Shown: piece by piece, positions 27,376 through 63,567 of the stretch
Position numbering within the stretch: the first letter of the stretch is position 1
Layout: every line of letters starts with the position of its first letter
NCBI RefSeq assembly: GCF_031128465.2
Contig: NZ_CP155618.1
Location: forward strand, 381,501-445,500
Direction: 5' to 3'
Source: Mariniflexile litorale
GTDB taxonomy: Bacteria; Bacteroidota; Bacteroidia; Flavobacteriales; Flavobacteriaceae
DNA length: 64,000 bases
Notes under the pieces: generated by a model
Database searches by the model: none
What the model saw: the letters and a program-made list of their open reading frames with translations, nothing else
What the model was told of the DNA's origin: nothing
Made by a program: the position numbers and the translations under genes

Positions 27376-27405
27376 TAACTTTGTTTACATAACACAATCG
27401 GTTGC
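27376..27405 (+). promoter_or_regulatory. Promoter and palindromic operator of the Weimberg operon
   Basis: TAACTTTG at 27376-27383 matches the -7 consensus TAnnTTTG. Ten bases downstream, 27394-27405 reads ACAATCGGTTGC, one of five copies of a palindrome in this window. The operator lies just past the expected start site, where a bound LacI-type protein would block initiation or elongation. The operon start is 27444. Confidence 0.6.
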
Positions 27406-27443
27406 ATAACTAACAACCGCTAGTTAATTAACAACTAAACTAA

Positions 27444-29165
27444 ATGAGTAAAGAGAAAAAACTTCGCAGCCAAGAATGGTTTGGAGGAGATGATAAAATG
27501 GGATTCGTACATCGCTCATGGTTACGTAATCAAGGCTATCCAGATGATTATTTTGAAGGCAAACCCGTCATTGGTATTTGTAATACTTGGTCTGAATTAA
27601 CACCTTGTAACGGACACCTGGGTGATGTAGCTGAAATTGTTAAACGCGGCATTCTTGAAGCTGGCGGTTTCCCTTTAGAATTCCCCGTGATGTCTTTGGG
27701 AGAAACGATTATGCGCCCAACAACCATGCTATTTCGCAATTTAGCAAGTATGGATGTTGAAGAATCCATACGCGCCAATCCATTAGATGGTATTGTACTA
27801 TTAACAGGTTGCGACAAAACCACGCCATCTACCATTATGGGTGCGTGTAGTGTAAATTTACCAACCATCGTGGTTCCTGGCGGCCCCATGTTAAATGGTC
27901 GTTTTAGAGGCGGTACCATTGGTTCTGGTTCATTCAATTGGATGATTAAGGAAAAACAAAAAACAGAGGAATTTGATGCTGAAGACATGCGTGAAGCCGA
28001 AATTTGTGCGGCACGAAGCATAGGGCATTGCAATACCATGGGCACAGCATCTACAATGGCTACCATGAGTGAAGCTCTAGGCTTAACACTTCCTGGTTTT
28101 TCATCCATTCCAGCAGCCGATTCTCGAAAAAAAGTGATGCAGCAGCTCTCTGGTCGTCGTATTGTAGAGATGGTGAACGAAGATTTAACCCTATCTAAAA
28201 TTCTAACCAGAAAAGCTTTTGAAAATGCTATTGTAACGAATGCTGCGGTTGGTGGTTCTACCAATTTAATTATTCATTTAATAGCTATAGCTCGCCGAAT
28301 TGGGGTCGATATAAAATTAGAAGATTTTGATACTATTGGTAGCCATATCCCCTTATTAGTTAATTTAATGCCTTCTGGAAAATATCTTATGGAAGACTTC
28401 TTCTATGCAGGTGGTTTACCAGTAGTTATGAAAGAATTGGGAGATTTACTACATCAAGATATTATTACTGCAAACGGTAAAACTTTTAAAGAAAACTACG
28501 TAAAAGCAAAGTGCTATGATAATGAGGTTATAGCTAAGATAGATAAGCCATTACAAGAAAATGCGGGTATAGCCGTGTTAAAAGGCAATTTATGTGAAAA
28601 TGGCTCAGTAATTAAACCTTCTGCTGCAACTTTAAAACTTATGAATCATACTGGAAGGGCTGTTGTTTTTGAAAGCATGGAAGATTATCATGAACGCATT
28701 GATCATCCGGATTTAGATATTGATGAGAATTGTGTTATTGTCCTCAAAGGTGTTGGTCCAAAAGGATATCCTGGAATGCCTGAAGTTGGTAATGTAGATC
28801 TTCCAGAAAAACTCATCCTGAAAGGCGTTAAGGATATGATTCGTATTTCTGATGGCAGAATGAGTGGTACTGCTTACGGCACTGTTGTTCTCCATATCTC
28901 ACCGGAATCAACAATAGGAGGTACTTTGGCGATTGTTCAAAATGGCGATATGATTACTTTAGATGTTGAAAATAGATTATTGCAACTTAATATTTCTGAT
29001 GAAGAAATTACCAAAAGAAAATCAGAATGGCAAGCCCCAGAGCCTATGGCAACAAGAGGTTATGTACGTATTTATTTAGATCATGTTGAAGGAGCTGATG
29101 TTGGTGCCGATTTAGATGTTCTGGTTGGTGGCTCAGGTTCAAAGGTAGATAGAGATTTACACTAA
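27444..29165 (+). CDS. IlvD/Edd family aldonate dehydratase (pentonate type)
   Basis: The protein has 573 residues. It belongs to the IlvD/Edd family, in the branch of D-xylonate and L-arabinonate dehydratases rather than branched-chain IlvD. Cys55 (LTPCNGH), Cys123 (TGCDKTTPS) and Cys196 (IGHCNTMG) have the spacing of the [2Fe-2S] ligands of this branch, and the magnesium-site region MGFVHRSW and RMSGTAYGTVVLH are present. It would convert a pentonate to 2-keto-3-deoxy-pentonate. The next genes encode a GntP permease, an FAH-family dehydratase and a semialdehyde dehydrogenase, which is the Weimberg series. D-xylonate is favoured by the xylan context; L-arabinonate is possible. Confidence 0.88.
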   Translation: MSKEKKLRSQEWFGGDDKMGFVHRSWLRNQGYPDDYFEGKPVIGICNTWSELTPCNGHLGDVAEIVKRGILEAGGFPLEFPVMSLGETIMRPTTMLFRNLASMDVEESIRANPLDGIVLLTGCDKTTPSTIMGACSVNLPTIVVPGGPMLNGRFRGGTIGSGSFNWMIKEKQKTEEFDAEDMREAEICAARSIGHCNTMGTASTMATMSEALGLTLPGFSSIPAADSRKKVMQQLSGRRIVEMVNEDLTLSKILTRKAFENAIVTNAAVGGSTNLIIHLIAIARRIGVDIKLEDFDTIGSHIPLLVNLMPSGKYLMEDFFYAGGLPVVMKELGDLLHQDIITANGKTFKENYVKAKCYDNEVIAKIDKPLQENAGIAVLKGNLCENGSVIKPSAATLKLMNHTGRAVVFESMEDYHERIDHPDLDIDENCVIVLKGVGPKGYPGMPEVGNVDLPEKLILKGVKDMIRISDGRMSGTAYGTVVLHISPESTIGGTLAIVQNGDMITLDVENRLLQLNISDEEITKRKSEWQAPEPMATRGYVRIYLDHVEGADVGADLDVLVGGSGSKVDRDLH

Positions 29166-29171
29166 AAAAAC

Positions 29172-30521
29172 ATGGTAGTTCTTTATCTATTAATATCAGT
29201 TTTACTTATTATTCTGCTAACGGCAAAGTTGAAAGTACATCCTTTTGTAGCTTTACTTTTAGTCGCTATTTGTTACGGAATAGCTGTCGGCATGCCTTTA
29301 AATCAAATTATCGATTCTGTCAATATAGGTTTTGGAAATACCTTAGGCGGTATTGGAATGATTATCATTTTAGGTGTTATTATTGGTGCTTTTCTCGAAA
29401 ACTCTGGAGGCGCTTATGCATTAGCTGAAAAAGTTTTAAAATTCACTGGAAAGAAAAAAATCCCTTTTGCTATGGGACTTATTGGATGGTTTGTATCCAT
29501 TCCTGTTTTTGCAGATAGCGGTTTCATGTTACTCGCTCCCTTAAATAAAAGTCTATCCAAAAAAGCAGGTATTTCACTATCTGGAACAGCCATAGCATTG
29601 GCACTAGGTTTAACGGCAGCACATACATTAGTGCCACCCACACCAGGACCCATTGCAGCAGCACATTACTTAAATGCAGATTTAGGTTTAGTGATGTTAT
29701 TAGGTATTCCAATAAGTTTCTTTGCTTTAATGATGGGTTTAATATTTGTTAAAAAAGTGGTTTCAAAAACCTATATTGATCCTGATCCAAAAATTACAGA
29801 TGCCGAAATTACGGAACGACTTAAAAATGCACCAAGTGCATTTAAGTCAACTATACCTATTATTGTTCCCATAATCCTTATTGTTATAAAATCCTTGGTG
29901 ACTTCGGTTTTTGGTTATAAAACTGACGATTACGAATCATTTCCAACATTTATAAAAATAATATTATTTTTAGGTGAACCTTTTATAGCTTTACTAATTG
30001 GTTGTTTTTTATCACTAACCCTTCCGAAGAAATTAAACAGAGACATGTTTTCTACTTCTGGTTGGATTGGGAAAGCTTTATTAGGAGCTTCTTCTATTTT
30101 ATTAATTACAGGAGCTGGTGGTATATTTGGTCAAGTGCTTAGAGATTCAGGGATTGCAACTACTTTAGGCGAAACATTATCGAACATAAACATTAGTATT
30201 TGGTTGCCATTTTTATTAGCAGCGTCCATAAAAACAGCACAAGGTTCGTCAACTGTTGCATTAGTAACAACCGCATCCATTTTAGCACCCATGATGTCAA
30301 GTTTAGGTTTTGAAACCGAATTACAAAAAGCCATGGTTGTTATAGCCATTGGAGCAGGTTCGTCTGTGGTTTCACATGCAAATGATAGTTTCTTTTGGGT
30401 GGTAACGAGGCTTTCTGGAATGGATGTAAAAATGGGATATCGTTTTCATAGTATAGGAACATTTATTTTGGGCACATCGGCAGCCCTATTATTATTCATT
30501 TTATATTTAATTTTAGCATAA
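29172..30521 (+). CDS. GntP family gluconate/aldonate permease
   Basis: The protein has 449 residues and many membrane helices. GntP family marks are [65 protein letters not shown] and [16 protein letters not shown]. The family imports gluconate and related aldonates by proton symport. It starts 6 bp after the dehydratase, and its stop overlaps the next start (TAATG). Its place between the two dehydratases implies import of the same pentonate, so the cell may take up xylonate directly. Confidence 0.92.
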
Positions 30522-31354
30522 TGAAGATTTACAACACATCAAAAGGGGTTTTAATTGAATTAGAAAAAATGTTTCATCTCATTAATAAAAATTGGGATGA
30601 ATTAATTAATGATGATAATTTATACAACAATTTAAAAAGCATTGTAAACACAAGTGCTCCGATTGATAATCATCATGATTTGATTGATAATTATCTAAAA
30701 GCACCATTAGAAAGTCAAGAAATTTGGGCGAGCGGCGTTACGTATTTTAATAGCAAAATGGCTAGACAAGAAGAAAGTAAAGATGCGGGGGGCGCAGATT
30801 TTTACGAACGTGTTTATTATGCTGATAGACCCGAGTTATTCTTTAAAGCGACAGCGCATCGTTCCGTGCCTTCTGGAGGAAAAGTAACTATTAGAAAAGA
30901 TTCTACTTGGGATGTTCCTGAACCGGAATTAACTTTGGTAATTACTTCAAACGGAAAAATTATTGGTTATACCATTGGTAACGATATGAGTTCGCGAAGT
31001 ATTGAAGGTGAAAACCCCCTGTATCTACCACAAGCCAAAACATTTGATGCTTGTGCTGGTGTAGGTCCCTGTGTTTTGGTTACCGATAAACCTTTACCTT
31101 TAGATACTAAAATCCATTTAAAAGTAATTAGAAATACAGACGTTATTTTTGATGAAACCACCAGTATTAGTAAAATGAAACGTAACCCTCAAGAATTAGT
31201 TGAATATCTATTTAGAGAATGTACCTTCCCTAAAGGATGCTTGCTAATGACCGGGACAGGCATTGTACCTACAACTGATTTTACTCTAAAAAGCAAAGAC
31301 GAAATTCAAATTTCAATAGATCATATAGGTACTTTAATTAATTATGTAAGATGA
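30521..31354 (+). CDS. FAH family 2-keto-3-deoxy-pentonate dehydratase (XylX-like)
   Basis: The protein has 277 residues and belongs to the fumarylacetoacetate hydrolase fold. The segment [44 protein letters not shown] carries the metal-binding acidic residues and the [10 protein letters not shown] stretch typical of 2-keto-3-deoxy-D-xylonate/arabinonate dehydratases. The product would be 2-oxoglutarate semialdehyde. It overlaps the GntP stop by one base and the esterase start by four bases (ATGA), so translation is probably coupled. Function is strongly supported by the aldehyde dehydrogenase two genes on. Confidence 0.87.
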
Positions 31355-32229
31355 AACTAATTAAAACCGTATTTCTTTTTTGCCTACTTACTGCCATACA
31401 TATCTCTAATGCTCAAGACAGTAAGTATACTTGGGGAGAAGACTCGAATCGACATGAAAATATTCCTAAAGGAACTGTAGCTAAATATGTCTGGAAGAGT
31501 ACCATTTTTGAAGGAACCATTAGAGAATATTTTATATATGTTCCTGCTCAATATAAATCTAATGAAGCTACAGCTTTAATGGTTTTTCAAGATGGACATG
31601 CGTATATAAATGAAGAAGGTAGTTTTAGAGCGCCAATCGTATTTGATAATCTTATTTATCAAAAAGAAATGCCAGTGACTATAGGATTATTTATCAATCC
31701 GGGTGATATAAGTTCCGTATTACCTGAAGACCCTTTTAGAGCTAGTAACCGAAGTATTGAATACGATAGTTTAAATGATGATTATATTCGCTTTCTTATG
31801 GAAGAACTTATACCCGAAATAAGTAAAACGTATAACATAACGACCAATCCTAAAATGAGAGCCATTTGCGGATTGTCTTCAGGTGCTATTTGTGCTTTTA
31901 CAGCAGCATGGGAACGACCAGATTATTTTAATAAGGTGATGAGTCATATTGGAAGTTTTACAAATATTCGTGGAGGACATAACTATGAAGCTATGATTAG
32001 AGAAACACCTAAAAAAAATATTAAAGTATATCTTCAAGATGGATCTAACGATTTGAATAATGAATACGGAAATTGGTGGCTTGCTAATCTGCAAATGGCA
32101 TCATCACTAGAATATATGTCCTACGATTATATGTTTGTAAAAGGTGATGGAGCACATAATGGAAAACATGGAGGCAGCGTGTTTCCAGAAGCACTAAAAT
32201 GGCTATGGTCTGATTTTAAAAAGAAATAA
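31351..32229 (+). CDS. Exported CE1/Fes-like esterase
   Basis: The protein has 292 residues. A signal peptide ([11 protein letters not shown]) precedes an alpha/beta-hydrolase of the enterochelin esterase/feruloyl esterase type. The nucleophile elbow is G-L-S-S-G with Ser176, a candidate acid lies in LQDGSNDL, and a histidine lies in GAHNGKHGG. Family members remove acetyl or feruloyl groups from xylan. Its location inside a sugar-acid operon, coupled to the FAH gene by an ATGA overlap, also leaves an aldonolactone as possible substrate. I cannot tell these apart from sequence. Confidence 0.75.
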
Positions 32230-32249
32230 TAATTAAACAAATTATAAAA

Positions 32250-33827
32250 ATGAGATTGACAGGAGGAAATTATATCGCTGGTTTAGTATCATCAGAAGGA
32301 AAAAGTACGTTTACAAGCATTAATCCTTTAAACGCATCAAAATTACCAACAGATTTTCATGAAGCTACCATAGAAGAAGTTCATAAAGCAGCTATAAAAG
32401 CGCATGAAGCATTTGCTATTTATAGCAAAAAAAGCGGCAACAAAAAAGCAGATTTTTTAGATGCAATAGCCGATGAAATTTTAAATTTAGGAGATGCTTT
32501 AATTGAACGTTGTTGTGCCGAAACTGGCTTACCTGCAGGAAGAATTACGGGTGAAAGAGGACGAACTATGGGGCAATTAAAAATGTTTGCTACAGTTTTA
32601 CGCGAAGGTTCTTGGGTTGATGCACGAATTGACCATGCAATACCTGATCGTGAACCATTACCAAAAGTTGATATGCGATCTATGCAAAAACCATTAGGGG
32701 CTGTAGGTGTTTTTGGAGCAAGTAACTTTCCTTTAGCCTTTTCAGTTGCTGGTGGAGATACTGCTTCTGCTTTAGCAAGTGGTTGTACCATAGTTGTAAA
32801 AGGACACCCTTCGCATCCAGGAACTTGCGAAATGATTGCTATTGCAATAAATAAAGCTATTGAAACATGTAACATGCCCAAAGGTGTTTTTTCTTTAGTA
32901 CAAGGGCAATCGGTTGAAGTTGGTATGGCCATAGTAAACCATCCACTCATAAAAGCAATTGGTTTTACAGGTTCATTCAAAGGCGGAAAAGCAATTTTTG
33001 ATGCTGCAAATAAAAGACCCGAACCAATTCCTGTATATGCTGAAATGGGAAGTACCAACCCTGTTTTTATTTTACCAAACGCATTGAAACAAAATGGAAA
33101 TGATATTGCTCAAGGATTAACAAATTCTGTGACCCTTGGAGTCGGTCAATTTTGTACAAGCCCAGGACTTGTCTTTTTACAGAATTCTGAAATTTTATCT
33201 GGTTTCAAATATACAGTTTCACAACATTTTGAGCAGGTTGAGGCAAATACCATGTTAAATAGCGGAATTAAAAAAGCATTTGATAAAGGCATAGATTTTT
33301 TGAATAGTAAAAGGGAAGTCAATTTATTAGCAAAGGGAAAAGTTAATAACGAAGGCTATAAGGGAACATCATACATTTTTGAAACATCGGCTAAAAATTT
33401 TATTAAAGAAAATTATTTAGAGGAAGAGATTTTTGGACCATCAACCATATCCATTACAGCAGATTCTAAAGAAGAATTATTAGCGTCCGCCCATAAATTA
33501 AAAGGACATTTAACAGCTACTCTTTTTGCTACCGAAGAAGATTTAGAAAATTATACAGATTTAATTCAAATCTTAGAACAAAAAGTAGGCAGATTAATTA
33601 TCAATAATTATCCAACAGGTGTTGAAGTATGTCATTCTATGGTGCATGGTGGCCCATTTCCATCCACTTCCAACAGTCGTTCAACATCAGTAGGAACAGG
33701 AGCTATTACGCGATTCACAAGACCCTTCTGTTACCAAAATTTCCCTAATCACTTATTGCCAAATGAATTAAAAAACGAAAATCCATTACATATTTTCAGA
33801 ATTATTGATGGCGAAATAACAAAGTAA
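32250..33827 (+). CDS. 2-oxoglutarate semialdehyde (2,5-dioxovalerate) dehydrogenase
   Basis: The protein has 525 residues, the long form of aldehyde dehydrogenase seen in sugar-acid pathways. Catalytic Cys302 is in GQFCTSPG, the general-base glutamate in YAEMGSTNP, and the cofactor region in GVFGASNFPLAFSVAGGD. It ends with HGGPFPSTSNSRSTSVGTGAI, typical of 2,5-dioxovalerate dehydrogenases. It would oxidise 2-oxoglutarate semialdehyde to 2-oxoglutarate, the last Weimberg step. It starts 20 bp after the esterase and ends the operon. Confidence 0.93.
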   Translation: MRLTGGNYIAGLVSSEGKSTFTSINPLNASKLPTDFHEATIEEVHKAAIKAHEAFAIYSKKSGNKKADFLDAIADEILNLGDALIERCCAETGLPAGRITGERGRTMGQLKMFATVLREGSWVDARIDHAIPDREPLPKVDMRSMQKPLGAVGVFGASNFPLAFSVAGGDTASALASGCTIVVKGHPSHPGTCEMIAIAINKAIETCNMPKGVFSLVQGQSVEVGMAIVNHPLIKAIGFTGSFKGGKAIFDAANKRPEPIPVYAEMGSTNPVFILPNALKQNGNDIAQGLTNSVTLGVGQFCTSPGLVFLQNSEILSGFKYTVSQHFEQVEANTMLNSGIKKAFDKGIDFLNSKREVNLLAKGKVNNEGYKGTSYIFETSAKNFIKENYLEEEIFGPSTISITADSKEELLASAHKLKGHLTATLFATEEDLENYTDLIQILEQKVGRLIINNYPTGVEVCHSMVHGGPFPSTSNSRSTSVGTGAITRFTRPFCYQNFPNHLLPNELKNENPLHIFRIIDGEITK

Positions 33828-36240: not shown

Positions 36241-38040
36241 CTATTTTTCAATTATATAATTTTCTAAAACCAAAATATCCATACCAGATTTAATAAAACA
36301 AAGATATGCGTCTTCTGGAGTATTAACTATCGGTTCGTCTTTCACATTAAAACTAGTATTTATAAGAACTCCAGTACCACTAAGTTGTTTATAAGATTGT
36401 ATTAAATTCCACAGTGTTGGGTTTACATCTTTATTAACCACCTGAACCCTCGCTGAAAAATCAATATGCGTAACAGCAGGCAAATCAGACTTTATAAACT
36501 TACGTTTTTCTTCTAAACTAAATCCTTCAAAATCTACTGGCAAGCTTCTTCTTAGAGATTTCTTAACTTTACTTGTAAACAACATATAATATGACAGTTT
36601 ACCTTGTTCAAAATAATCGTCATAATCTTCCTCACAAACCACAGGTGCAAATGGCCTAAAACCTTCTCTGAATTTAATTTTCATATTTAAGGTATATTGC
36701 ATTTCCGGATCTGTAGGATCTGCTAATATACTTCTGTTTCCCAATGCTCTTGGACCAAATTCTGTTCGACCTCTATACCAACCCACCACTTTCTTTTTCG
36801 CTATCATTTGAGCTGTGGCTTTTGTTAGCTCATCGGTATTTTCATAATATTGGTATTTACATTTATATTTTCGCAATAGTCTTTCAATATCTTCATTTGA
36901 ACTTTTATACCCTAAATAAACATCGAAAGGCTTGTTTAAACCTTGAAATTTTAAATCCTGCTTAATATGAGCGACAGCTAATGCTGCTCCTAAAGCACCT
37001 CCTGAATCTCCAGCAGCTGGTTGCACATATATATCTTTAAAGATGTTTTGTTTAAATAACACTGAATTTGCAACACAGTTAAGAGCTACACCTCCAGACA
37101 AACATAAATTGTCTTCACCTGTTTCTTCCTTTATAAATTTAATTAGCTTAATAAGGACTTCTTCTGTAACTTTTTGCGCAGCAAGTGCTAAATCGGCATG
37201 TATTTGTTCCAATTTATCTTCTGGTAACCTTTTCTTAATTCCAAATATATTTTCCCATTTTTTAGAATCAACCATTCTCAATCCCACAGGATATTCAAAG
37301 TAATCCATATTCAATTTTATCGAACCATCAGATTTAATATCAATTAGCTTTTCTTTTATAAGAGCCACAAATTGGGATACTCGTTTTGAGTTTGGATTTC
37401 CATAAGGAGCGAGTCCCATCATTTTATATTCACCTGAATTAACTTTAAACCCTAAAAAATAAGTGAATGAAGAATAATACAAACCTAATGAATTTGGGAA
37501 ATGTAGTTCACCTAATACTTGAAGGCCTTTTTCTCCAGAAGCAATACCATAAGATGTTGTTGCCCATTCACCTACTCCATCAATGGTTAAATAAGCACAT
37601 TTACTATAAGGAGACGTGTAAAAGGCACTGGCCGCATGAGAGAGATGATGCTCAGGAAAATTTATAGGTATTTTAATAGTTTTTGATGTACTTAGTGCTT
37701 TAATTCTTTTGTTTATAAACTGCTTAATGAATAATTTTTCTTTTAACCAAACAGGCATCGCTTTTGCAAATGATGTGAAACCTTTTGGGGCAAATGCATA
37801 ATAAGTTTCTAGTAACCTTTCAAATTTTAAAAAAGGTTTGTCATAAAAAGATATAAAATCAATATCTTCCATACTTATCCCTGCTTCGTTCAAACAATAC
37901 TCTATTGCTTTTTCAGGGAATGAGGCATCATTTTTAATTCTTGAAAACCGTTCTTCTTGAGCTGCATATAATACTTTTCCATCTTCTATTAATGAAGCCG
38001 CGGAGTCATGATAATAAGCAGAAATACCAAGAATTTTCAT
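36241..38040 (-). CDS. NodU/CmcH-type O-carbamoyltransferase
   Basis: The protein has 599 residues, the usual size. The N-terminal Kae1-like half has GISAYYHDSAASL, QEERFSRIKND, HHLSHAASAFYTSPY (iron-binding histidines) and TIDGVGEW, and a GGVALNCVANS loop. The C-terminal YrdC-like half has RTEFGPRALGNRSILADP and FREGFRPFAPVV. These enzymes use carbamoyl phosphate and ATP to put a carbamoyl group on a hydroxyl of a sugar or small molecule. It heads the cassette with DUF5989 and SxtJ. A GCAACCGATTGT operator lies 34 bp upstream, shared with the xylan operons. Confidence 0.93.
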   Translation of the reverse strand: MKILGISAYYHDSAASLIEDGKVLYAAQEERFSRIKNDASFPEKAIEYCLNEAGISMEDIDFISFYDKPFLKFERLLETYYAFAPKGFTSFAKAMPVWLKEKLFIKQFINKRIKALSTSKTIKIPINFPEHHLSHAASAFYTSPYSKCAYLTIDGVGEWATTSYGIASGEKGLQVLGELHFPNSLGLYYSSFTYFLGFKVNSGEYKMMGLAPYGNPNSKRVSQFVALIKEKLIDIKSDGSIKLNMDYFEYPVGLRMVDSKKWENIFGIKKRLPEDKLEQIHADLALAAQKVTEEVLIKLIKFIKEETGEDNLCLSGGVALNCVANSVLFKQNIFKDIYVQPAAGDSGGALGAALAVAHIKQDLKFQGLNKPFDVYLGYKSSNEDIERLLRKYKCKYQYYENTDELTKATAQMIAKKKVVGWYRGRTEFGPRALGNRSILADPTDPEMQYTLNMKIKFREGFRPFAPVVCEEDYDDYFEQGKLSYYMLFTSKVKKSLRRSLPVDFEGFSLEEKRKFIKSDLPAVTHIDFSARVQVVNKDVNPTLWNLIQSYKQLSGTGVLINTSFNVKDEPIVNTPEDAYLCFIKSGMDILVLENYIIEK

Positions 38041-38073: not shown

Positions 38074-38101
38074 ACAATCGGTTGCTAAAATAACAAATTA
38101 A
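38074..38101 (-). promoter_or_regulatory. Operator and probable promoter of the carbamoyltransferase cassette
   Basis: On the minus strand, TTAATTTG (38101-38094, one mismatch to TAnnTTTG) is followed after 8 bp by GCAACCGATTGT (38085-38074), the palindrome shared by five regions. The layout copies that at 27376-27405, with the operator just past the expected start site. Confidence 0.5.
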
Positions 38102-41564: not shown

Positions 41565-41574
41565 AAAAATAATT

Positions 41575-49042: not shown

Positions 49043-49085
49043 ATCAATGACTATTAAACAACTGAATTTAAAAAAACAGATTAAT

Positions 49086-50450: not shown

Positions 50451-50476
50451 AACGTTTTATCTTAAAAAAACAGAAA

Positions 50477-53765: not shown

Positions 53766-53787
53766 TATTCGAGTTTTATAATTGAAT

Positions 53788-55239
53788 TTATAATTTAGGT
53801 GGTAGATTTAATCTTCTTTCTTTTAAATCAGATTCTAATTTAACCTCCATTTTTTTGTTAATTTCATAGAAGAACAACAAACCAACTCCAATTAAAAAAG
53901 GGATAGAAGGAAAGACACTTACTAATAATTTAATGCCTTTTACGGCGGTTTCAGGTTGTATTAATGAATTAGGGATATAATCAAAAACTCCTAAAAACCA
54001 TGATGTTAAGGCGCCTCCTATACTCAATCCCGCTTTTAAACCAATCATCATTGCAGAAAATATAATAGCTGTAGCTCTCCGATTGTTTTTCCATTCGGAA
54101 TAATCGGCAACATCGGCAATCATCGCCCATAAAATGGGGATGGTTATTCCATAGAAAAACCCATGTAAAATTTGAGATATGAAAATTAGTTTTATAGATG
54201 TTGGTGGAAAAAAGTAAAATGCCATGATAAACAGGGTTGAAATAAATAAGAAGACAGCAAAAACATCTCTTTTACCATACTTATCTGCTAATTTTTTAGA
54301 AAAAGTAATTCCAATTATCATAAAAATGATACCTCCTGCATTGAATAATCCAAAGCCAGCAGAAATAGGATCGTCACCAAAGTGATTAAGTCCTATTGAA
54401 GACATAAAATCTAATATGGGCTGAATAAAAGTTGCTAAATTGTCTTTATCAACATAGTTTTCAAAATAATAAACATAAGATCCGCCTTTCATGGCAAGAG
54501 TAACAAATACTAACAAAGTAAGTGATAGCATTATAAGCCAAGGTTTATTTTTCATCAAATCTCCTAAATCTTCTTTAACGCTCGATTTTTGTTCTGGTTT
54601 AGGAACAACACGCTCTTTTGTAGTAAAGAAGGTAATTAAAAGCATAATAGTACCTACAATAGCCAATACAGTCATTACTTTTTCTATACCAATGGCTTTA
54701 TCCCCATCGCCTGCACTTTTAATAATACCCAACATGAATACTTGAACAAAAAATTGAGCAAACATAACGGCGACAAATCGATAAGAAGACAAACTATTTC
54801 TTTCTCCCATATCGCCTGTAATAACACCACTCAATGCTGAATAAGGCAAATTATTGGCAGCATATAATAAAAGAAGAAATGTATAAGTCACTACCGCATA
54901 TATAACCTTTCCTTTATATGCAAAATCTGGGGTACTAAAAGCTAATAATGAGACTATACCTAACGGAACTGCCGTCCATAATATCCAGGGTCTGAATTTC
55001 CCCCATTTGCTATTTGTTCTATCTGCTATAGCTCCAATAATTGGATTAAAAATAAAAGCTGCAATTAACCCAACAACCAGCATGATTATGGACGAATCTT
55101 TAGGTGAAAGACCATAAATATCTGTATAGAAATAAGCTAGATAAGTAACTAACGTTTGAAAAACCAAATTAGCAGCAAGGTCTCCTAAGCTATATCCTAT
55201 CTTTTCTTTGATGGATAATTTTTGTGAAGTTGAATTCAT
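53788..55239 (-). CDS. GPH-family (glycoside-pentoside-hexuronide) sodium/proton symporter
   Basis: The protein has 483 residues and 12 membrane helices. GPH marks are SLGDLAANLVFQTLVTYLAYFYTDIYG in helix 1, IIGAIADRTNSKWGKFRPWILW between helices 2-3, YAANNLPYSALSGVITGDMGERNSLSSYRF, and IPILWAMIADVADYSEWKNNRRATA. XynP/XynT-type members take up xylo-oligosaccharides or xylosides. It sits between a GH10 and a cytoplasmic GH43, which fits oligosaccharide import followed by hydrolysis. Confidence 0.92.
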   Translation of the reverse strand: MNSTSQKLSIKEKIGYSLGDLAANLVFQTLVTYLAYFYTDIYGLSPKDSSIIMLVVGLIAAFIFNPIIGAIADRTNSKWGKFRPWILWTAVPLGIVSLLAFSTPDFAYKGKVIYAVVTYTFLLLLYAANNLPYSALSGVITGDMGERNSLSSYRFVAVMFAQFFVQVFMLGIIKSAGDGDKAIGIEKVMTVLAIVGTIMLLITFFTTKERVVPKPEQKSSVKEDLGDLMKNKPWLIMLSLTLLVFVTLAMKGGSYVYYFENYVDKDNLATFIQPILDFMSSIGLNHFGDDPISAGFGLFNAGGIIFMIIGITFSKKLADKYGKRDVFAVFLFISTLFIMAFYFFPPTSIKLIFISQILHGFFYGITIPILWAMIADVADYSEWKNNRRATAIIFSAMMIGLKAGLSIGGALTSWFLGVFDYIPNSLIQPETAVKGIKLLVSVFPSIPFLIGVGLLFFYEINKKMEVKLESDLKERRLNLPPKL

Positions 55240-55265
55240 GTATTCCTATTTAGTTGGTTAGTTGG

Positions 55266-56384
55266 TTATTTTTTCAAGCTTATAATACTATCATAAGCTT
55301 GTTTAGGCTTAAATTCTCTGTCGAAGAGCAATGGATAATTGGTTCGTCCTTCAATAGGCCAATCGTTAAGCCAAGATTGACCATCGTTTACACCCCAAAA
55401 GGTTACTCTACTAATTTTATCTTGGTGCTTTAAGAATAGTTTAAATATATCTTGATAACGATTTGCTAATTTTGTTTGAATAGAATCTGGTAAACTTTTA
55501 GGGTATGGATTCATTTTCTCACTACCTTCAAAATTTTGATTTACATCAGCTCCAACTAAATCCCATGGACTTGGTAAAAGGTTTATATCTAACTCTGTAA
55601 TAGCTACTTTTACTCCCAAAGAAGCATAGTCTAAAATACTTTCTTCTATTTCTTCAATTGAAGGAGAATCTATATGCCAATGTCCTTGCATACCAACACC
55701 ATCAATTTTAATTCCTTTTTCTTGAAGCTTTTTTACTAATCTTATAGCTCCTTTTCTTTTGGCTACATCAGTCATATTATAATCGTTATAATACAAATCT
55801 GTATTCGAGTCCGCTTCAGATGCCCATTTAAAAACCAACGCTAAATAACCTTCACCTAAAGCATCTAAAAAAGCTGTTTTTCGTAAAGTGCCATCTTCAT
55901 TTAATGCTTCATTCACCACATCCCAAGAATTTATTTTTCCTTTATACCTACTAACAATAGTTTTTATATGATTTTCCGTAGCTAAAGCCATTTCTGTGCT
56001 ATCCTTTATTTCTGAAAACCAGGGAGCTAATTGACTGTGCCATATCAAGGTATGTCCGTGAATGAACATATCATGTTTTTTTCCGAAAGCTATATATTTA
56101 TCAGTTAATTTAAAATCAAAGGCATCTTTAGTAGGATGGATAAACATTGATTTCATAATATTTTCTGAAGTAATGCTATTGAACTCTTTTGATATCAATG
56201 CTGTAACCAACGAATCTTTTTCTAATATTTGATTTTCGCTAAGTGCCGTTCCTATATAGAAATTTTCATTGTAAGCTTCCTTTAGTGCAATAACTGTAGA
56301 TGGTTTTTCATCATTGTTTTCTTTACAACTGTTAGCTAGAATTAGTATGGATACAATGAATATAAATTGTTTTAATGTTTTCAT
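55266..56384 (-). CDS. GH10 endo-xylanase lipoprotein
   Basis: The protein has 372 residues. The lipoprotein cysteine is in LILANSCKEN (20). The GH10 barrel has TSENIMKSMFIHP, HGHTLIWHSQLAPWF, acid/base Glu159 in WDVVNEA, nucleophile Glu264 in ITELDIN, and TFWGVNDGQSW. It is similar in size to the GH10 at 26169, with no CBM. It begins 4 bp after GH115, so both are co-translated in the glucuronoxylan operon. It may cut decorated oligosaccharides in the periplasm. Confidence 0.94.
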   Translation of the reverse strand: MKTLKQFIFIVSILILANSCKENNDEKPSTVIALKEAYNENFYIGTALSENQILEKDSLVTALISKEFNSITSENIMKSMFIHPTKDAFDFKLTDKYIAFGKKHDMFIHGHTLIWHSQLAPWFSEIKDSTEMALATENHIKTIVSRYKGKINSWDVVNEALNEDGTLRKTAFLDALGEGYLALVFKWASEADSNTDLYYNDYNMTDVAKRKGAIRLVKKLQEKGIKIDGVGMQGHWHIDSPSIEEIEESILDYASLGVKVAITELDINLLPSPWDLVGADVNQNFEGSEKMNPYPKSLPDSIQTKLANRYQDIFKLFLKHQDKISRVTFWGVNDGQSWLNDWPIEGRTNYPLLFDREFKPKQAYDSIISLKK

Positions 56385-56387
56385 AAT

Positions 56388-59282
56388 TTAGTTGGTTTTA
56401 AAGCTTTGTGGTGGACCCAAATAAGTACTTTTCAAATCACTTGTTTCTGTTTCTATAATTATTTTTTGAAGGACCAAACCTTCATCAATTCTATAATAAT
56501 TCAACGTGTGATTTCCTGCCTTATCAATTTCAAATTCTGTTGTAATAATTTTAATATTGTCTGCTACATTTGAATGCCAATTACTAGGAACTTTCCCGTT
56601 ATAATTAAAAATATTTGGATCTGAATCGTAATTTATTTGAGTTGGGGTTTCTTTATTAAAAGACAAACCAAAATACATACCTTCTCTCGGCGCATAATTG
56701 ATGGTTGGAGAAAAATACATATGCACTTTTACTTTTCCTTTGTTTTGAAAATTAACATTATAAGATAACTTAGGTGATTTTTTTGATAGCCCTACCCTAC
56801 CCTTTTTTATTGGCAGAGAAATTACAGCATCATCTGTTTTACCTAAATTTTCAACCACTTTCCATTGGAATTGTTTTGGTTCATATTTATTAGAGAAATT
56901 TTTAGCATTTATAGAAATGAATCCATTGTTTTCTACAAACCCATCCACATGAGATGGATTAAGGTTGTTTATTTTAATATGAATGGGTACTTGCTTTCCT
57001 GCTCCAATAACAGTTACAACAGAATTTTGAACCCCTTTAGGGGCATGATCCCAATCAATACTTACTGTAATGCTCTTTTCATTTTTGATAATACCGTTTG
57101 GTTCTGATATTTTCACCCAAGTAGCATTACTTTTAATTTCATATGAGAAATCTTCTTTTCCTCTGTTAAAAATTTCAATAGGATACTTTTGGTTATTGAA
57201 GGAATCGAAAATTGGTAAGATCGCACCTTCGTTAGTTCCAGACCACCATTCATTAGAACCTTCCATGGAGACACCCATTTCTGCATCATCGGCTTCATCA
57301 ATTTTATAGGTTTCGGGTATCTTGTTAAATTTAGGTTCTTGCCAAATTTCGTAACCAATATGGGTTTGAGACATCATATGGTTCCACTTTCCATGAGCCA
57401 TTTCTTTATGGTAATAGCTCGTTAATTCTTTGTCTTTATTAAATAATTCTTTTACTTTTTCGGCATAAAAATTTGTAGATGTTCTACCCTGTTTTGCGTA
57501 CAGATTATTTTTTGCAGCACTTACATAGAGTTCATTAAGATTTGCACTTGCTAATACAGGAAATAACACCAATTGATAATAGGCATCTTTATACATTTCA
57601 GGGAGTTCGTTATTAATGGCTTGTGCTTTTTTTGCTAGTTCATTAAACTGTTCAATAACTGCATTGGCTTCGTTATAATTGTGTAAACTGTAAGTTGAGG
57701 CATCTATTAATTCGTGTTTTCTTCTTGCATTATACTTGATGTATTTTTTCATGATATCTGCAATGGCTTCTGTTTGAATACCTCCAAAAACAGCATTTGC
57801 CCATAGTTTGTAATAATCTTGTAAATTATCGGCATGCCATTTTTCAGGATCCCAGGCATAGTCAAAGAAAAATTGCAAAGGGAATTCCATTGGTTTGATA
57901 TCCCCTACATTTACAATCCATACTTTATCTACCCCATGTTCATAAGCCAAATGCATTTGCTCCCACGTACGTTCAATCTGATTTGTATTTAACCATTTAT
58001 AGTTCCGAGGACCGCCAACATAATCAAAATGATAATAAATACCATAACCACCTTTACGAGGTTTTGCATCGAGACTAGGTAGTTTTCTAATATTCCCCCA
58101 ATTGTCGTCACAAAGCAATAATGTTACATCGTCAGGAACCTGCATGCCTTTATCATAATAATCTTGAACTTCCTTATATAGTGCCCAAATTTGAGGTGTT
58201 TTTTCAGCAGGTTTGCCTGTTACATCTGCAATAATTTTACGCTGTTCTTTTACAATTGTTTCAAGTAAATCTGTTGCAGTTTCTTCACTCATCGCTTCAT
58301 CACCATCACCACGCATACCAACGGTTATTAAAGTTTCTTTAGTTCCCATTCGCTTCAAACCTTCTTTCCAAAAGGCTTTCAAGCCATCTGCGTTGGTATT
58401 AAAATCCCAGTCTCCGTTTACAGATTTATTCCATTCGGCATGAGCACGTGATAATGGTTCGTGATGTGAGGTTCCCATAACGATACCATATTCATCTGCT
58501 AATATGGCATTTTGAGAATCATCAACATTAAACTTTCTTGGTGGCCACATAGCTGGCCATAAATAATTCCCTTTCATTCTAAGAATAAGCTCAAAAACTT
58601 TATCATAGAACTCAGCATTAAAATCACCATATTTTTCATAAACCCAACCCGTTAAAGCTGGCGCTTCATCATTTATAAAAAAGCCTCTGTATTTAACTTT
58701 TGGTTCTCCTAAAGTGTGAATACCAGGAAGCACATGTAATTCTGATTGTTTTTTTACAGGTACATCTGCCCAAAAATACCACGGCGAAACACCTATTTGA
58801 CTTGACAAATCATAAATACCATAAATAGTCCCCCGTTTGTCTGAACCAGCAATAACCAATGCTTTTTTTACACCTGCCATTGGATTTTCAACAATTTGGG
58901 TCGTGAATTTCTCCCATTTCCCTTGAAGTGGAATGGCATCAATTTTACCTTCTTTAACTAATTGATCAATTATAGAACTTTTACCTAAAGTCCCAATAAT
59001 CACCATGTAATCTTCAATTTGCGATTTATCATTGAAAATATTTGGTAGAATTCCTGCAACATTCAGAAGATCATTTTGAAGATGACTCACCACACGTAAT
59101 ACTCCCGAAAAATCAGTTTCGCTTACTAATATAGAAGCTACTTTACCGTTAGCTGCTAAAGGAAAATTTGCATTTGATGCCTTTGCTACTACATATTTAT
59201 TTATATCAATAGCAAATGCGCTATTGATATAAATAAATAAAAATGTTAAACCGAAGAATCGTTTGGTATTTAAAAATGTCAT
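56388..59282 (-). CDS. GH115 xylan alpha-1,2-glucuronidase
   Basis: The protein has 964 residues, the normal size. A signal peptide (FIYINSAFA) precedes an N-terminal domain. The catalytic TIM barrel begins near VKYRGFFINDEAPALTGWVYEKYG, with LWPAMWPPRKFNVDD, GIVMGTSHHEPLSR, DGDEAMSEE and LLLCDDNWGNIRKLP. The C-terminal part has Ig-like and beta-sandwich domains. GH115 removes (4-O-methyl) glucuronic acid from internal xylose units, unlike GH67, which needs a terminal one; both are in this operon. Confidence 0.94.
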   Translation of the reverse strand: MTFLNTKRFFGLTFLFIYINSAFAIDINKYVVAKASNANFPLAANGKVASILVSETDFSGVLRVVSHLQNDLLNVAGILPNIFNDKSQIEDYMVIIGTLGKSSIIDQLVKEGKIDAIPLQGKWEKFTTQIVENPMAGVKKALVIAGSDKRGTIYGIYDLSSQIGVSPWYFWADVPVKKQSELHVLPGIHTLGEPKVKYRGFFINDEAPALTGWVYEKYGDFNAEFYDKVFELILRMKGNYLWPAMWPPRKFNVDDSQNAILADEYGIVMGTSHHEPLSRAHAEWNKSVNGDWDFNTNADGLKAFWKEGLKRMGTKETLITVGMRGDGDEAMSEETATDLLETIVKEQRKIIADVTGKPAEKTPQIWALYKEVQDYYDKGMQVPDDVTLLLCDDNWGNIRKLPSLDAKPRKGGYGIYYHFDYVGGPRNYKWLNTNQIERTWEQMHLAYEHGVDKVWIVNVGDIKPMEFPLQFFFDYAWDPEKWHADNLQDYYKLWANAVFGGIQTEAIADIMKKYIKYNARRKHELIDASTYSLHNYNEANAVIEQFNELAKKAQAINNELPEMYKDAYYQLVLFPVLASANLNELYVSAAKNNLYAKQGRTSTNFYAEKVKELFNKDKELTSYYHKEMAHGKWNHMMSQTHIGYEIWQEPKFNKIPETYKIDEADDAEMGVSMEGSNEWWSGTNEGAILPIFDSFNNQKYPIEIFNRGKEDFSYEIKSNATWVKISEPNGIIKNEKSITVSIDWDHAPKGVQNSVVTVIGAGKQVPIHIKINNLNPSHVDGFVENNGFISINAKNFSNKYEPKQFQWKVVENLGKTDDAVISLPIKKGRVGLSKKSPKLSYNVNFQNKGKVKVHMYFSPTINYAPREGMYFGLSFNKETPTQINYDSDPNIFNYNGKVPSNWHSNVADNIKIITTEFEIDKAGNHTLNYYRIDEGLVLQKIIIETETSDLKSTYLGPPQSFKTN

Positions 59283-59300
59283 GCTTTATACTATGGTATT

Positions 59301-60491
59301 TTAAATTTTGTTATCTAATTCATGTTTTAATTTATAACGGATGCCCATCTCCAAACCTCTCAATTCTGCTAGTCCTTTAAGTCTCCCTACTAATGAATAG
59401 CCCGGATACTGTTCTTTTCCTTCTTCAATAGAATGTAAAAATCCATGATCGGGACGAAGTGGTAAATCGATATTTCTTTTCTGCATCAATAAAACCAATT
59501 TTTCCATAATCCTCTCAATAGGGTTATCACCGTTGAGGTGTTCCGATTCTCTAAAAACGTCTTTAGAATCTCTTTTCACATTCCTAATGTGTAAAAAATG
59601 TATTCGATCTCCGTGCACGTCGATTATTTGTTCAAGATTATTTTTCGGATCCGCACCTAAAGAACCCGTACAATAACAAAGGCCGTTTGCACTAGTAGGT
59701 ACTGAATTAAAAATAGCATTTAAATCGTTTTCTGTACTAACTACCCTTGGTAATCCTAATACTGAAAATGGAGGATCATCTGGATGAATCGCTAATTTCA
59801 CCCCTGATGCTTCAGCAACTGGAGCAACTTCAGATAAGAAATGAATTAAATTACCTCTTAATTTATCATTATCGATGTCTTTATAATTTTCAAGTAGTGA
59901 CAAAATTTGTTCTCTTGTAAAACTCACTTTACTTCCTGGTAATCCAAGAAGCACATTTTTAAAGAGTAAATCTTTATCACTTTGTGAAAGGGAGTTTCCA
60001 TAGTTTAAAGCAATCTGCTTTTCTTCTTCTGTATAATCATTTTCAACATGTGGTCTTTTCAATAAAAAAAGATCAAAATAGTTGAAAGCAACTTGGTTAT
60101 ATAGTAATGCTTTACTTCCATCTGGATTTTCAAATGCATGATTGGTGCGTACCCAATCTAGAATAGGCATAAAGTTATAAGTCACTACTTTAATACCACA
60201 GGTTGCTATGTTTTTTATGCTATTTTTATAATTCTCTATATACTTTAAATGTGCTCCATTTGCCTTTTTTATATCTTCATGAACTGGTAAGCTTTCAATG
60301 ACTGTCCATTCCATTCCTGCATTTCTTATGGTTTCTTGACGTTCTTTAATAGCCTCTACCGTCCAAATATCTCCAACAGGAATTTCGTGTAAAGCGGTTA
60401 CAATTCCTGTAACACCACATTGTCTTATATCTTTTAATGAAATGGTATCGTTAGGACCAAACCAGCGCATTGTTTGTTGAATTTGTTTCAT
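59301..60491 (-). CDS. uxuA: D-mannonate dehydratase
   Basis: The protein has 396 residues. It opens QTMRWFGPNDTISLKDIRQC and has the TGIVTALHEIPVGDIWT segment, IHPDDPPFSVLGLPRVV (metal ligands), NGLCYCTGSLGADP, HFLHIRNVKR and LPLRPDHGF. UxuA dehydrates D-mannonate to 2-keto-3-deoxygluconate. The SDR gene lies 11 bp upstream and GH115 starts 18 bp downstream, linking glucuronate release to its breakdown within one transcript. Confidence 0.96.
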   Translation of the reverse strand: MKQIQQTMRWFGPNDTISLKDIRQCGVTGIVTALHEIPVGDIWTVEAIKERQETIRNAGMEWTVIESLPVHEDIKKANGAHLKYIENYKNSIKNIATCGIKVVTYNFMPILDWVRTNHAFENPDGSKALLYNQVAFNYFDLFLLKRPHVENDYTEEEKQIALNYGNSLSQSDKDLLFKNVLLGLPGSKVSFTREQILSLLENYKDIDNDKLRGNLIHFLSEVAPVAEASGVKLAIHPDDPPFSVLGLPRVVSTENDLNAIFNSVPTSANGLCYCTGSLGADPKNNLEQIIDVHGDRIHFLHIRNVKRDSKDVFRESEHLNGDNPIERIMEKLVLLMQKRNIDLPLRPDHGFLHSIEEGKEQYPGYSLVGRLKGLAELRGLEMGIRYKLKHELDNKI

Positions 60492-60502
60492 ATCTTCAAA
60501 AA

Positions 60503-61237
60503 TTAAAATCCTATACTATTTCCACCATCAACCGGAAGCACTGTGCCCGTTACAAATTTAGATTCACTCGATGCGAAATAATAAACAGCATCACCAATGT
60601 CAGATGGTTCTCCTAAAATACCCATTGGGGTTCTAGATAGCACTTTGTTTTTTCTTTCTGGATCACTATCTAATGCTTTAGCCGACATTTTGGTTTTTAT
60701 AAAACCTGGTGCTACACAATTTACTCGTACATTATATTGAGCCAATTCTACTGCCATGGCGCGAGTCATAGCTTCAATAGCTCCTTTACTTGCTGTGTAA
60801 GCAATAACTTTTGGAATACCATACTGAGAAGCCATTGAACTTATATTTACAATGTTACCACCACCATGATTTTTCATTATTTTAACCACCTCTCTACTTA
60901 TAGAAAACACACTTTGTATGTTTGTATGAATAATAGAATCAAAATCTTCATCTGTTACATCAATAAATTCCTTTTTAAAATTGATACCTGCATTGTTTAC
61001 TAAAATATCGATATTACCATTTTTAGCAATATCTGTAATCATAGTTGGAATTCCTGCTAGATTATTCAAATCAAAAATAACCGGTATTGCGTTTGCACCT
61101 ATTTCCGAACAGGCATCTTCTGTTTTTTCTTTGGTTCTTCCAATAATAAAAGTTTTTATACCGTTATCACATAATTTCTTTGCTGTTGCAAATCCTAATC
61201 CTGAATTACCTCCAGTAACTATCGCTATTTTACTCAT
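60503..61237 (-). CDS. SDR oxidoreductase, probable D-mannonate oxidoreductase
   Basis: The protein has 244 residues, a classical SDR. The cofactor loop is TGGNSGLG (8-15), NNAG is at 81-84, and the triad is Ser134, Tyr147 and Lys151 (SSMASQ...VIAYTASK). It sits directly upstream of uxuA, and no long-chain UxuB is present in the window. Reduction of D-fructuronate to D-mannonate is therefore the best inference, as a non-homologous UxuB substitute. It differs from the SDR at 17112, which is in the UxaA-type operon. Confidence 0.85.
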   Translation of the reverse strand: MSKIAIVTGGNSGLGFATAKKLCDNGIKTFIIGRTKEKTEDACSEIGANAIPVIFDLNNLAGIPTMITDIAKNGNIDILVNNAGINFKKEFIDVTDEDFDSIIHTNIQSVFSISREVVKIMKNHGGGNIVNISSMASQYGIPKVIAYTASKGAIEAMTRAMAVELAQYNVRVNCVAPGFIKTKMSAKALDSDPERKNKVLSRTPMGILGEPSDIGDAVYYFASSESKFVTGTVLPVDGGNSIGF

Positions 61238-61265
61238 CTTGTTTTTTTAAATTATTTTATTACTC

Positions 61266-63422
61266 TTAATTTCCTGGTGCAAAAGTAAATTTTAAAGATT
61301 TAAAATAGTCTAATGTTTGAGTTGATTTTTCAACACCAACAGGTAATGATTTTTGTGAAAACTCCTGAAAATATAATAAGCATGCATCTCGCCACCATTT
61401 AGCTTCTTTATGTTGAATATTTAATAACATGTAAACATCACTAAACCTTTCCTCATCAACATATGGTTTCGCTTCTTCCCAAATGCTTATCATGGATGCT
61501 ACTTGATCAACACCTTCTTGGTATTTTAGAGCCATCCCATCCCAAAGTGTTTTTCCATTTTTTAATTTAAAATCCCATGATACGTGATGAAACCATAATA
61601 AATCCTCTTCTGGACAAGTTTCAAGATTATTAAACTTTGAAGCAACTTGAGGTGCATATTGAGCAGTAGCATTGCTTCCTGATGGTGTTCGATCAAACCC
61701 TACTCCTAACGAATCTGCTTTATGATAATAAACTGGATTCCATTCAGGTCTTGATAAATCAGACACCCATGGACCAGGACCATAATGATGTCCTGTATCC
61801 ATAATATGATGTAAACCTAAAGGTGTCATATAATTTACAACGGCTTCTCTTGAACTTAATAACATATCTTTTACTGGTTTTACGAATTTTTCATCATTAG
61901 AAAAAGTAGAACGTAACCACTCATCAGCTATTTCTTCAGAACTTAAATATGGGTTCCAAGCCAATCGTCCAAAACCATACCAGTTTGCTTGTAACATGGG
62001 GTTCCCTGTCCAATTAATATCATTTCCAATATTACTAACACCTGCAATACCTGTTAATACTTTATTATCTAAAGAGCCATCAATAATTTTTGCAACCGTT
62101 GAACCTTTCCCCTTTTTATACGTGTCTGATTGTAAAACTTCTTCATATAATTTTGGAAGAAAAACGGTATGTGTACTTTGGCCTAAATATTCTTGAGTAA
62201 TTTGAAATTCCATCATCAAAGGTGTTTTTGGCATCGTTCCAAACATAGGATGAAAGGGTTCTCGAGGCTGAAAATCAATCGCACCATTTTTCACTTGAAT
62301 AATCACGTTATCTTTAAATTGCCCATCGTAAGGCACAAACTCGGAATATGCTTGTTTAGCTCTATCGGTAATATCGTGTTCTGAATACACAAAAGCTCGC
62401 CACATGACAACCCCTCCAAAAGGTGTAAGAGCATCTGCCAGCATATTGGCGCCATCTACATGGTTCCTACCATAATTTTGTGGTCCTGGCTGCCCTTCTG
62501 AATTTGCCTTAACCAAAAAGCCTCCAAAATCAGGGATTTTAGAGTAAATTTCTTTAACTTTATTTTTCCACCATGCAATAACTTCTGCATCATAGGGGTC
62601 GGCTGTTTCTAATCCACCAATTTCTATAGGAGCAGAAAAACGTGTTGTTAAATACACTTTTATACCATAAGGTCTAAAAACATTCGCCAGTGCTTCCACT
62701 TTTTCTAAATACTGGGGTGTTAAAATGAGAGCATTCGCATTAACATTGTTTAAAACGGTTCCATTGATACCAATAGAAGCATTAGCACGGGCATAATCTC
62801 TATATCTTGAATCTATGTAATCTGGCAAACGATGCCAATCCCAAATGGAAAAACCAGCATAACCTCTTTCTACCGTTCTATCTAAATTATCCCAGTGATT
62901 TAATACACGAACTTTTATTTTGGGAGCATCTATAATATTTAAATTTTCTATAGATTGATGTGTTTGTAATAATCTCAAAAATTTAAAAACACCGTATAAA
63001 ACGCCTACGTCATTTTTACCTGTTATAATAATTTGATTTTTACCTTTAATTGAAATAGTTTTAATAACGAATCCTTCATCATTTATTTCATTAAACGCAT
63101 TCCCTAATTGGTTTTTAACAATCTCATTTAAAGAAGACTCAGAACCAAACATCAAAGAATTAGATTCAATATTATTTTTTGTACCAGATAAAACCTTTGA
63201 ACCAAGCATACCATTCAGTCCTAATTCAAGCTCTTTTAAAGCAACTTTTATTGTTTCAGAATTACCAAAAGGAATTATTCTTTTAATATTCGATTGATAG
63301 CTGGTTCGTATTTGCTTATCTTGAATATGATTGTATTGCAACCATAACTTATACCCATCGTTAGCAAAACTTTTTATACAAACCATAGAAAGTAGCAATA
63401 ACGTTAAATAATACTTTTTCAC
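61266..63422 (-). CDS. GH67 alpha-glucuronidase
   Basis: About 718 residues from the GTG at 63420-63422, which gives a standard signal peptide (KKYYLTLLLLSMVCIKSFA); a GTG nine codons earlier (63449) is the alternative. GH67 hallmarks are RVLNHWDNLDRTVERGYAGFSIWDW, the acid glutamate in KANSEGQPGP, the base pair Asp/Glu in AIDFQPREPF and FQITQEYLGQSTH, and a C-terminal domain with RPEWNPVYYHKAD and WFHHVSWD. It releases (methyl)glucuronate from the terminal xylose of aldouronic acids. First gene of the seven-gene minus-strand operon. A periplasmic site is implied. Confidence 0.95.
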   Translation of the reverse strand: MKKYYLTLLLLSMVCIKSFANDGYKLWLQYNHIQDKQIRTSYQSNIKRIIPFGNSETIKVALKELELGLNGMLGSKVLSGTKNNIESNSLMFGSESSLNEIVKNQLGNAFNEINDEGFVIKTISIKGKNQIIITGKNDVGVLYGVFKFLRLLQTHQSIENLNIIDAPKIKVRVLNHWDNLDRTVERGYAGFSIWDWHRLPDYIDSRYRDYARANASIGINGTVLNNVNANALILTPQYLEKVEALANVFRPYGIKVYLTTRFSAPIEIGGLETADPYDAEVIAWWKNKVKEIYSKIPDFGGFLVKANSEGQPGPQNYGRNHVDGANMLADALTPFGGVVMWRAFVYSEHDITDRAKQAYSEFVPYDGQFKDNVIIQVKNGAIDFQPREPFHPMFGTMPKTPLMMEFQITQEYLGQSTHTVFLPKLYEEVLQSDTYKKGKGSTVAKIIDGSLDNKVLTGIAGVSNIGNDINWTGNPMLQANWYGFGRLAWNPYLSSEEIADEWLRSTFSNDEKFVKPVKDMLLSSREAVVNYMTPLGLHHIMDTGHHYGPGPWVSDLSRPEWNPVYYHKADSLGVGFDRTPSGSNATAQYAPQVASKFNNLETCPEEDLLWFHHVSWDFKLKNGKTLWDGMALKYQEGVDQVASMISIWEEAKPYVDEERFSDVYMLLNIQHKEAKWWRDACLLYFQEFSQKSLPVGVEKSTQTLDYFKSLKFTFAPGN

Positions 63423-63555
63423 TCTCAGTTTGTTTGTAAGATAAATCACTTTTATTTTAGTTTATTGATAATTTGAAACATTTTCACTTATATAAGTATA
63501 TATTTCATAATATCTTCATTAATTAATTGTGAAGATAAAAAAAATATTTTAATTT

Positions 63556-63567
63556 GCAATCGGTTGC
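63556..63567. promoter_or_regulatory. Palindromic operator between GH67 operon and GH3
   Basis: The sequence is GCAATCGGTTGC, the most symmetric of the five copies. On the minus strand a TATCTTCA, 18 bp downstream of the operator, could be the -7 of the GH67 operon, matching the layout at the susC promoters. On the plus strand TTAATTTG (63549-63556) directly abuts it. It may control both directions. Confidence 0.55.

Follow-up and report, generated by a model that had tools for sequence, protein, structure and literature searches.

A putative CG-centred operator class and a candidate LacI-type regulator of glucuronoxylan genes in Mariniflexile litorale and other Flavobacteriaceae

LacI-type control of xylan genes is known from the XylR/xyl-box system of Xanthomonas, which takes in genes for TonB-dependent receptors and belongs to another phylum than the bacterium considered here, Mariniflexile litorale. 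Closer by descent, the xylan polysaccharide utilization locus (PUL) of Gramella flava, a member of the same bacterial family, presumably holds aguA, encoding a glycoside hydrolase (GH) of family GH67, beside lacI. The excerpted text of its description draws and names this lacI gene and gives no operator or regulon (PMC5306329). Bacteroides has three uronate regulators predicted to be of the LacI family, UxuR, UxaR and KdgR (PMC3878776, Table 2, and PMC4052901, both as excerpted), directed to cytoplasmic monosaccharide pathways and few extracellular genes (PMC3878776, section 10). Here we analyse a window of 64,000 nucleotides (the whole stretch C1:381501-445500) from the 4.52-Mb genome of M. 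litorale, which is a single contig (C1). Five palindromic 12-mers in it mark the starts of gene groups that probably serve glucuronoxylan use, and we consider it very probable that these sites are the operators of a LacI protein encoded at C1:450873-451901, which would repress its targets until released by a uronate-type signal. Compared by description, the system is like the Bacteroides regulators in its family, in its occurrence in Bacteroidota and in the uronate catabolic genes of its regulon, and differs from them in that SusC/SusD and secreted xylan enzymes also belong to the regulon. With LacI/PurR/CcpA-type repressors it shares the LacI helix-turn-helix (HTH), a periplasmic-binding-like sensor and a CG-centred palindromic operator, whereas the operator, CAAYCGRTTG, and a regulon with SusC/SusD polysaccharide loci are its own. 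No report of such an operator was found in the literature searched, RegPrecise not being covered, and a search of paper texts for the 10-mer gave, among the matches listed, no title on a LacI operator, their subjects being unrelated. We regard the LacI regulon as real and its regulator as local: a familiar kind of gene switch and a well-supported new case. For the use of xylan by Flavobacteriaceae it supplies an operator, puts a name to a candidate regulator and lists the targets.

The pattern RCAATCGGTTGY has five matches in the window, against a mean of 0.01 in 100 dinucleotide-preserving shuffles, none of which reached five. An earlier note on this DNA had reported five copies of a shared palindrome, all intergenic and within about 160 base pairs (bp) of operon starts. 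All five were recovered; they lie between genes, although intergenic DNA makes up 6.0% of window positions 2771-64000 in our gene list, and the start codons they face are 34-147 bp off (distances are from operator start to start codon). The element is a CG-centred inverted repeat as described, but an imperfect one; its half-sites are CAATC and CAACC, and the natural class is therefore CAAYCGRTTG (the core), to which the wider class RCAAYCGRTTGY adds the outer purine and pyrimidine. The core brings in one further window match, GCAATCGGTTGA at 32906, which falls within the gene for aldehyde dehydrogenase and has no outer pyrimidine. Left of 27 kb the window has no core match, which bears out the earlier observation that the motif is missing there; this part holds, at 18913-25772, SusC/SusD genes with FecR and an extracytoplasmic function (ECF) sigma factor, a motif-free second circuit. 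Across the whole genome there are eight exact sites, namely the five of the window, 452070, 2163163 and 2163428, against one for the reversed control pattern, and six of the eight cluster round the xylan genes within C1:408894-452081. The wider class occurs at ten places (control, four), the extra two being 2163293 and 2187270. Far from being equally common inside genes, exact sites are intergenic in seven of eight cases and class sites in nine of ten, the exception being 452070, in the 5' end of a GH43 gene (GH43b).

The earlier note had held that the regulon lacks a local regulator. There is indeed no match to PF00356, the LacI HTH, inside the window; the gene lies just beyond its right edge. 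The sixth exact site, 452070, stands 169 bp upstream of the start codon of a LacI gene (C1:450873-451901, stop codon included, minus strand, 342 amino acids), which is separated by 5.4 kb from the right end of the window (445500). The gene belongs to the same xylan cluster, in the order GH3, esterase, Sde182-like protein, LacI, GH43b, GH2, and is one of 12 LacI HTH genes in the genome (PF00356 search). Its own PF00356 match scores 42.4 bits (cut-off 27) over residues 8-53, C1:451743-451880, and its C-terminal periplasmic-binding-like sensor matches PF13377 and PF00532 above cut-off; no exact equivalog model of NCBIfam reaches its cut-off on it. The protein aligns to residue 339 of 342 with CcpA/PurR-type relatives (its best solved relatives are CcpA and PurR), and its C-terminus ends like theirs. 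E. coli LacI carries a tetramer helix at its C-terminus, which the M. litorale protein seems to lack.

Scanning genome contigs with the xylan-cluster LacI yielded 77 orthologue loci at 70-78% identity, mostly from Flavobacterium, among them two (L062 and L090) of F. johnsoniae strain CI04, with Tamlana, Confluentibacter and Aestuariibaculum besides. The core has 203 matches in 72 of these loci, whereas the best of 29 other palindromes built from the same letters has 16; 198 of the 203 fall outside kept open reading frames (ORFs), and four of the five inside lack the outer R/Y. Site-target pairs within 500 bp involve the MFS permease (66), GH67 (60), LacI itself (24), GH3 (22), SusC1 (18) and GH43a (12); the site just upstream of lacI is conserved. 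In an unanchored alignment of 72 GH67 upstream regions, 67 of which contain the core, the best conserved 10-column windows are AACCGATTGC (0.954) and CAACCGATTG (0.953) against a median of 0.694; the operator is thus more conserved than the intergenic DNA around it. As recognition helix, LATSTISR occurs in at least 81 of 96 orthologue proteins (81 of the 85 covered by the 14 commonest strings). Among 120 control genomes of the family, 11 have a LacI orthologue (E <= 1e-100) and 14 have GH67; ten have both, one LacI only, four GH67 only and 105 neither (Fisher p 9e-11). In the 400 bp upstream of GH67, eight of the ten genomes with the orthologue have the core, and none of the four without; of the remaining two, G040 has it with one mismatch, and G110 lacks it at both of its GH67 genes. 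Genome-wide site counts average 5.64 in the 11 genomes with LacI and 2.12 in the 109 without (p 6e-5). In a sample of 395 genomes of the phylum, with at most five candidates scored per genome, all matches to this LacI at E <= 1e-90 are in its own family. As expected of a LacI regulon, a CG-centred palindrome at sugar-gene promoters tracks the regulator, Confluentibacter providing the exceptions.

Ten related genomes contain 52 class sites, and the surroundings of 44 were read (three in G108, three in G030 and two in G094 were left out), along with one extra core site without the outer pyrimidine, giving 45 core sites. A site lies 29 bp from IlvD in G113, and in G049 one stands at a GH10-IlvD-GntP-FAH-aldehyde dehydrogenase operon divergent from LacI. 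G061 has two sites 23 bp apart in the carbamoyltransferase/SusC1 gap, G061 and G115 each have one at a GDSL gene, and G115 and G030 at SusC1. In G094, whose LacI is 53-54% identical and whose genome has no GH67, the site by lacI faces uxuB-uxuA. UxaC is found beside the LacI/GH67 cluster in G049, G113, G108 and G111.

Promoters in Bacteroidota follow a -7/-33 consensus. We restricted the comparison to sites that face a single, unambiguous gene within 260 bp and merged identical rows (124 rows). A -7-like box, TAnnTTWR, ends 1-2 bp short of the operator in 33 of the 34 distinct rows for GH67, 43 of the 64 for MFS and five of the six for GH43a. In M. litorale itself, the ilvD box TAACTTTG starts 18 bp upstream of operator 27394, and the TAnnTTTG boxes of susC1 (TACTTTTG) and susC2 (TATATTTG) start 31 and 32 bp after their operator starts; near the carbamoyltransferase, GH67, GH3 and other-locus SusC sites of this genome no exact TAnnTTTG box was found. 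Most of these placements would fit a repressor that blocks initiation, and the protein is most likely a repressor. Briefly, we suggest that a LacI dimer binds RCAAYCGRTTGY next to or over the promoters and represses them, its own included via the site just upstream of lacI. A breakdown product of the glucuronoxylan side chain would then release it, most likely a uronate or uronate-pathway intermediate, such as D-glucuronate, 4-O-methylglucuronate or fructuronate. We propose a uronate-type effector because the G094 site faces uxuB-uxuA in the absence of GH67 and UxaC adjoins the LacI/GH67 cluster. From these comparisons of sequence we infer binding, repression rather than activation, autoregulation and the effector alike. 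Paired operators occur, 78 bp apart at the MFS permease and about 320 bp apart at SusC1; since the LacI seems to be without the tetramer helix, we make no claim of looping.

Several observations weigh against this reading. The 77 LacI loci are not independent, being dominated by Flavobacterium, and five of them are core-free; four of these are from Confluentibacter, with an intact LacI (74-75%), GH67, and core-free GH67 upstream regions. Genomes with LacI also contain somewhat more copies of the reversed control pattern (2.73 vs 1.61, p 0.017). Seven of the 45 core sites in the ten other genomes are inside ORFs, and several face genes unmatched to the regulon. The one-mismatch scan of the M. 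litorale genome (86 matches vs 55 for the control) is too noisy to extend the regulon. The core also occurs, with other flanks, in four of ten loci whose LacI proteins are more distant (44-51% identical to the LacI of a pectin locus). Finally, no -7-like box abuts the operator in the SusC1 (0/9) or LacI (0/9) rows, and at susC1 and susC2 the operator would overlap the expected -33 region, a position that would suit an activator as well.

This last point gives rise to an alternative that we consider unlikely, namely that LacI, bound across the -33 region at the susC promoters, is an activator, or activator and repressor both. The boxes at susC1 and susC2 put the operator near -40, and in relatives a TAnnTTTG box at +30 recurs in seven of the 18 pairs of a site with SusC1. 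The operators of ilvD, GH67 and the MFS permease, however, fall on the -7-like box or directly downstream of it, as suits a blocking protein, and the majority of characterised LacI proteins are repressors.

Somewhat less probable still is that another of the 12 LacI paralogues binds the sites (CAATCGGTTG), for example the one in the pectin locus (C1:2185935-2186981), or that several with overlapping specificity do so. Class site 2187270 precedes the SusC gene adjoining this pectin-locus LacI, three more sites precede another SusC at 2.163 Mb, and the distant LacI group carries the core, mostly as TCAATCGATTGA, beside its own LacI genes. Yet six of the eight exact sites surround the xylan LacI and not the pectin-locus one, whose orthologues have the core in two of 20 loci (about 3-4 kb each, 80 kb in total), one of the two being from M. 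litorale itself; on this count we reject the pectin-locus LacI as the main cognate. The commonest CG-centred palindrome at these orthologues is TAAYCGRTTA (seven matches in six of the 20 loci, L156-L172 and L181-L183), which they may use as their own operator, and their helices are TASTVSR or TAATVSR-like as against LATSTISR. In three loci of the distant group (L173, L176 and L185), TCAATCGATTGA adjoins the LacI gene, often twice. The core is thus shared with a more distant LacI group and not exclusive to the xylan LacI, and cross-talk among LacI proteins is therefore possible as regards the reader of the sites at 2.163 and 2.187 Mb.

It is very improbable that the sites belong to another local regulator such as the XylR-like protein at 13149-14294, in which, as the earlier note recognised, a periplasmic-binding domain is joined to an AraC HTH. 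Its gene is in the window, next to glucuronate genes, but no site lies near it, there is no core left of 27 kb, and the motif tracks the LacI gene. Moreover, the sites are inverted repeats, whereas the motif given for Vibrio XylRA in the excerpted text of PMC12125979 consists of two AT-rich direct repeats and not a CG-centred palindrome; we reject the XylR-like protein as the cognate on the grounds of site distance and of this direct-repeat motif. That the sites are chance occurrences or a repeat element devoid of regulatory role is, for all the modest one-mismatch excess over control, refuted as far as sequence can do so by five observed against 0.01 expected and by position and sequence conserved across genera, leaving it a negligible prospect.

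Returning to the xylan-cluster LacI as regulator, the earlier idea of a LacI-type xylan regulon stands in that the sites are centred on glucuronoxylan genes and, from genus to genus, the motif goes with a single group of LacI orthologues, but the sites are not confined to xylan enzymes, the class occurring also before SusC genes of two other polysaccharide loci. One of these is at 2.163 Mb, where three class sites fall within 277 bp before a SusC gene (L010 8164-8440) in a locus with GH115, GH35, GH2, GH28, GDSL and sulfatase genes. The core regulon would comprise GH67-uxuB-uxuA, lacI and SusC/SusD, and in M. litorale also a pentonate-oxidation operon and a carbamoyltransferase. The operator by LacI is placed in the coding start of GH43b here (L009 6671-6682), in G061 and in G040, the peptides over it being KQPIA, KQSVA and KQPIA, respectively. 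In G061 the palindrome is flipped, and this changes two residues yet keeps the operator class, which suggests, for these three cases only, selection on the DNA of this internal operator. Tentatively, and with rather more doubt than belief, we advance the joint claim that in part of the Flavobacteriaceae a glucuronoxylan regulon of several loci has a uronate-sensing LacI repressor as its master switch, where one might look for a hybrid two-component system or an ECF sigma factor. Under this claim the side chain would be the signal that switches on backbone digestion, the adjoining GH43 gene would carry an operator in its coding start, and control by the repressor would extend to a carbamoyltransferase, an operon for oxidation of pentonates and a second polysaccharide locus, one with GH115.

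The features of the window are collected in Table 1. The SusC/SusD pairs occur together with glycoside hydrolases (Pfam), as in a PUL, and the genes at 52746..63449, for glucuronoxylan side-chain and glucuronate use, are transcribed away from operator 63556. In the operon at 27444..33827, the NCBIfam model PRK06131 (dihydroxy-acid dehydratase) matches above cut-off, and those for L-arabinonate dehydratase and KGSA dehydrogenase match below theirs; it likely encodes a pentonate-oxidation (Weimberg-like) route. Membership of the regulon would tie this operon and the NodU-type carbamoyltransferase to xylan use.

Table 1. Putative operators and the genes they face, in window coordinates.
Feature	Position	Strand	Remarks
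Operator ACAATCGGTTGC	27394..27405	+	50 bp (start to ATG) upstream of ilvD-like operon
IlvD/EDD-type dehydratase	27444-29165	+	Pfam; first gene of operon 27444..33827
GntP permease	29172-30521	+	Pfam; same operon
FAH-family protein	30521-31354	+	Pfam; same operon
Esterase-like	31351-32229	+	Pfam; same operon
Aldehyde dehydrogenase	32250-33827	+	Pfam; last gene of operon
NodU-type carbamoyltransferase	36241..38040	-	PF02543 and PF16861
Operator ACAATCGGTTGC	38074..38085	+	34 bp upstream of carbamoyltransferase start (38040, - strand)
Operator GCAATCGGTTGT	38328..38339	+	147 bp upstream of susC1
susC1/susD1 pair	38475..43554	+	Pfam
Operator, GCAACCGATTGT on + strand	44093..44104	-	147 bp upstream of susC2
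susC2, susD2, surface glycan-binding protein, GH10 with carbohydrate-binding module	44240..52666	+	Pfam
GH67, SDR (UxuB-like), UxuA, GH115, GH10, MFS permease, GH43	52746..63449	-	Pfam
Operator GCAATCGGTTGC	63556..63567	+	Between divergent GH67 (- strand, 107 bp, GTG start) and GH3 (+ strand, 107 bp)
GH3 gene start	63663..64000	+	Cluster continues beyond window: esterase, Sde182-like protein, LacI gene, GH43b

Two further observations concern these genes. In G049 and G113, IlvD and GntP show 89-94% identity, as against about 67-73% for the LacI proteins. At 33927-38040, a GDSL protein, a 153-amino-acid protein that matches SxtJ below threshold (23.1 bits, cut-off 24.4) and the carbamoyltransferase are found together under the operators; in G061 (L124) a GDSL gene, an ORF of 153 amino acids and the carbamoyltransferase gene adjoin, and in G115 (L130) the GDSL and carbamoyltransferase genes do so.

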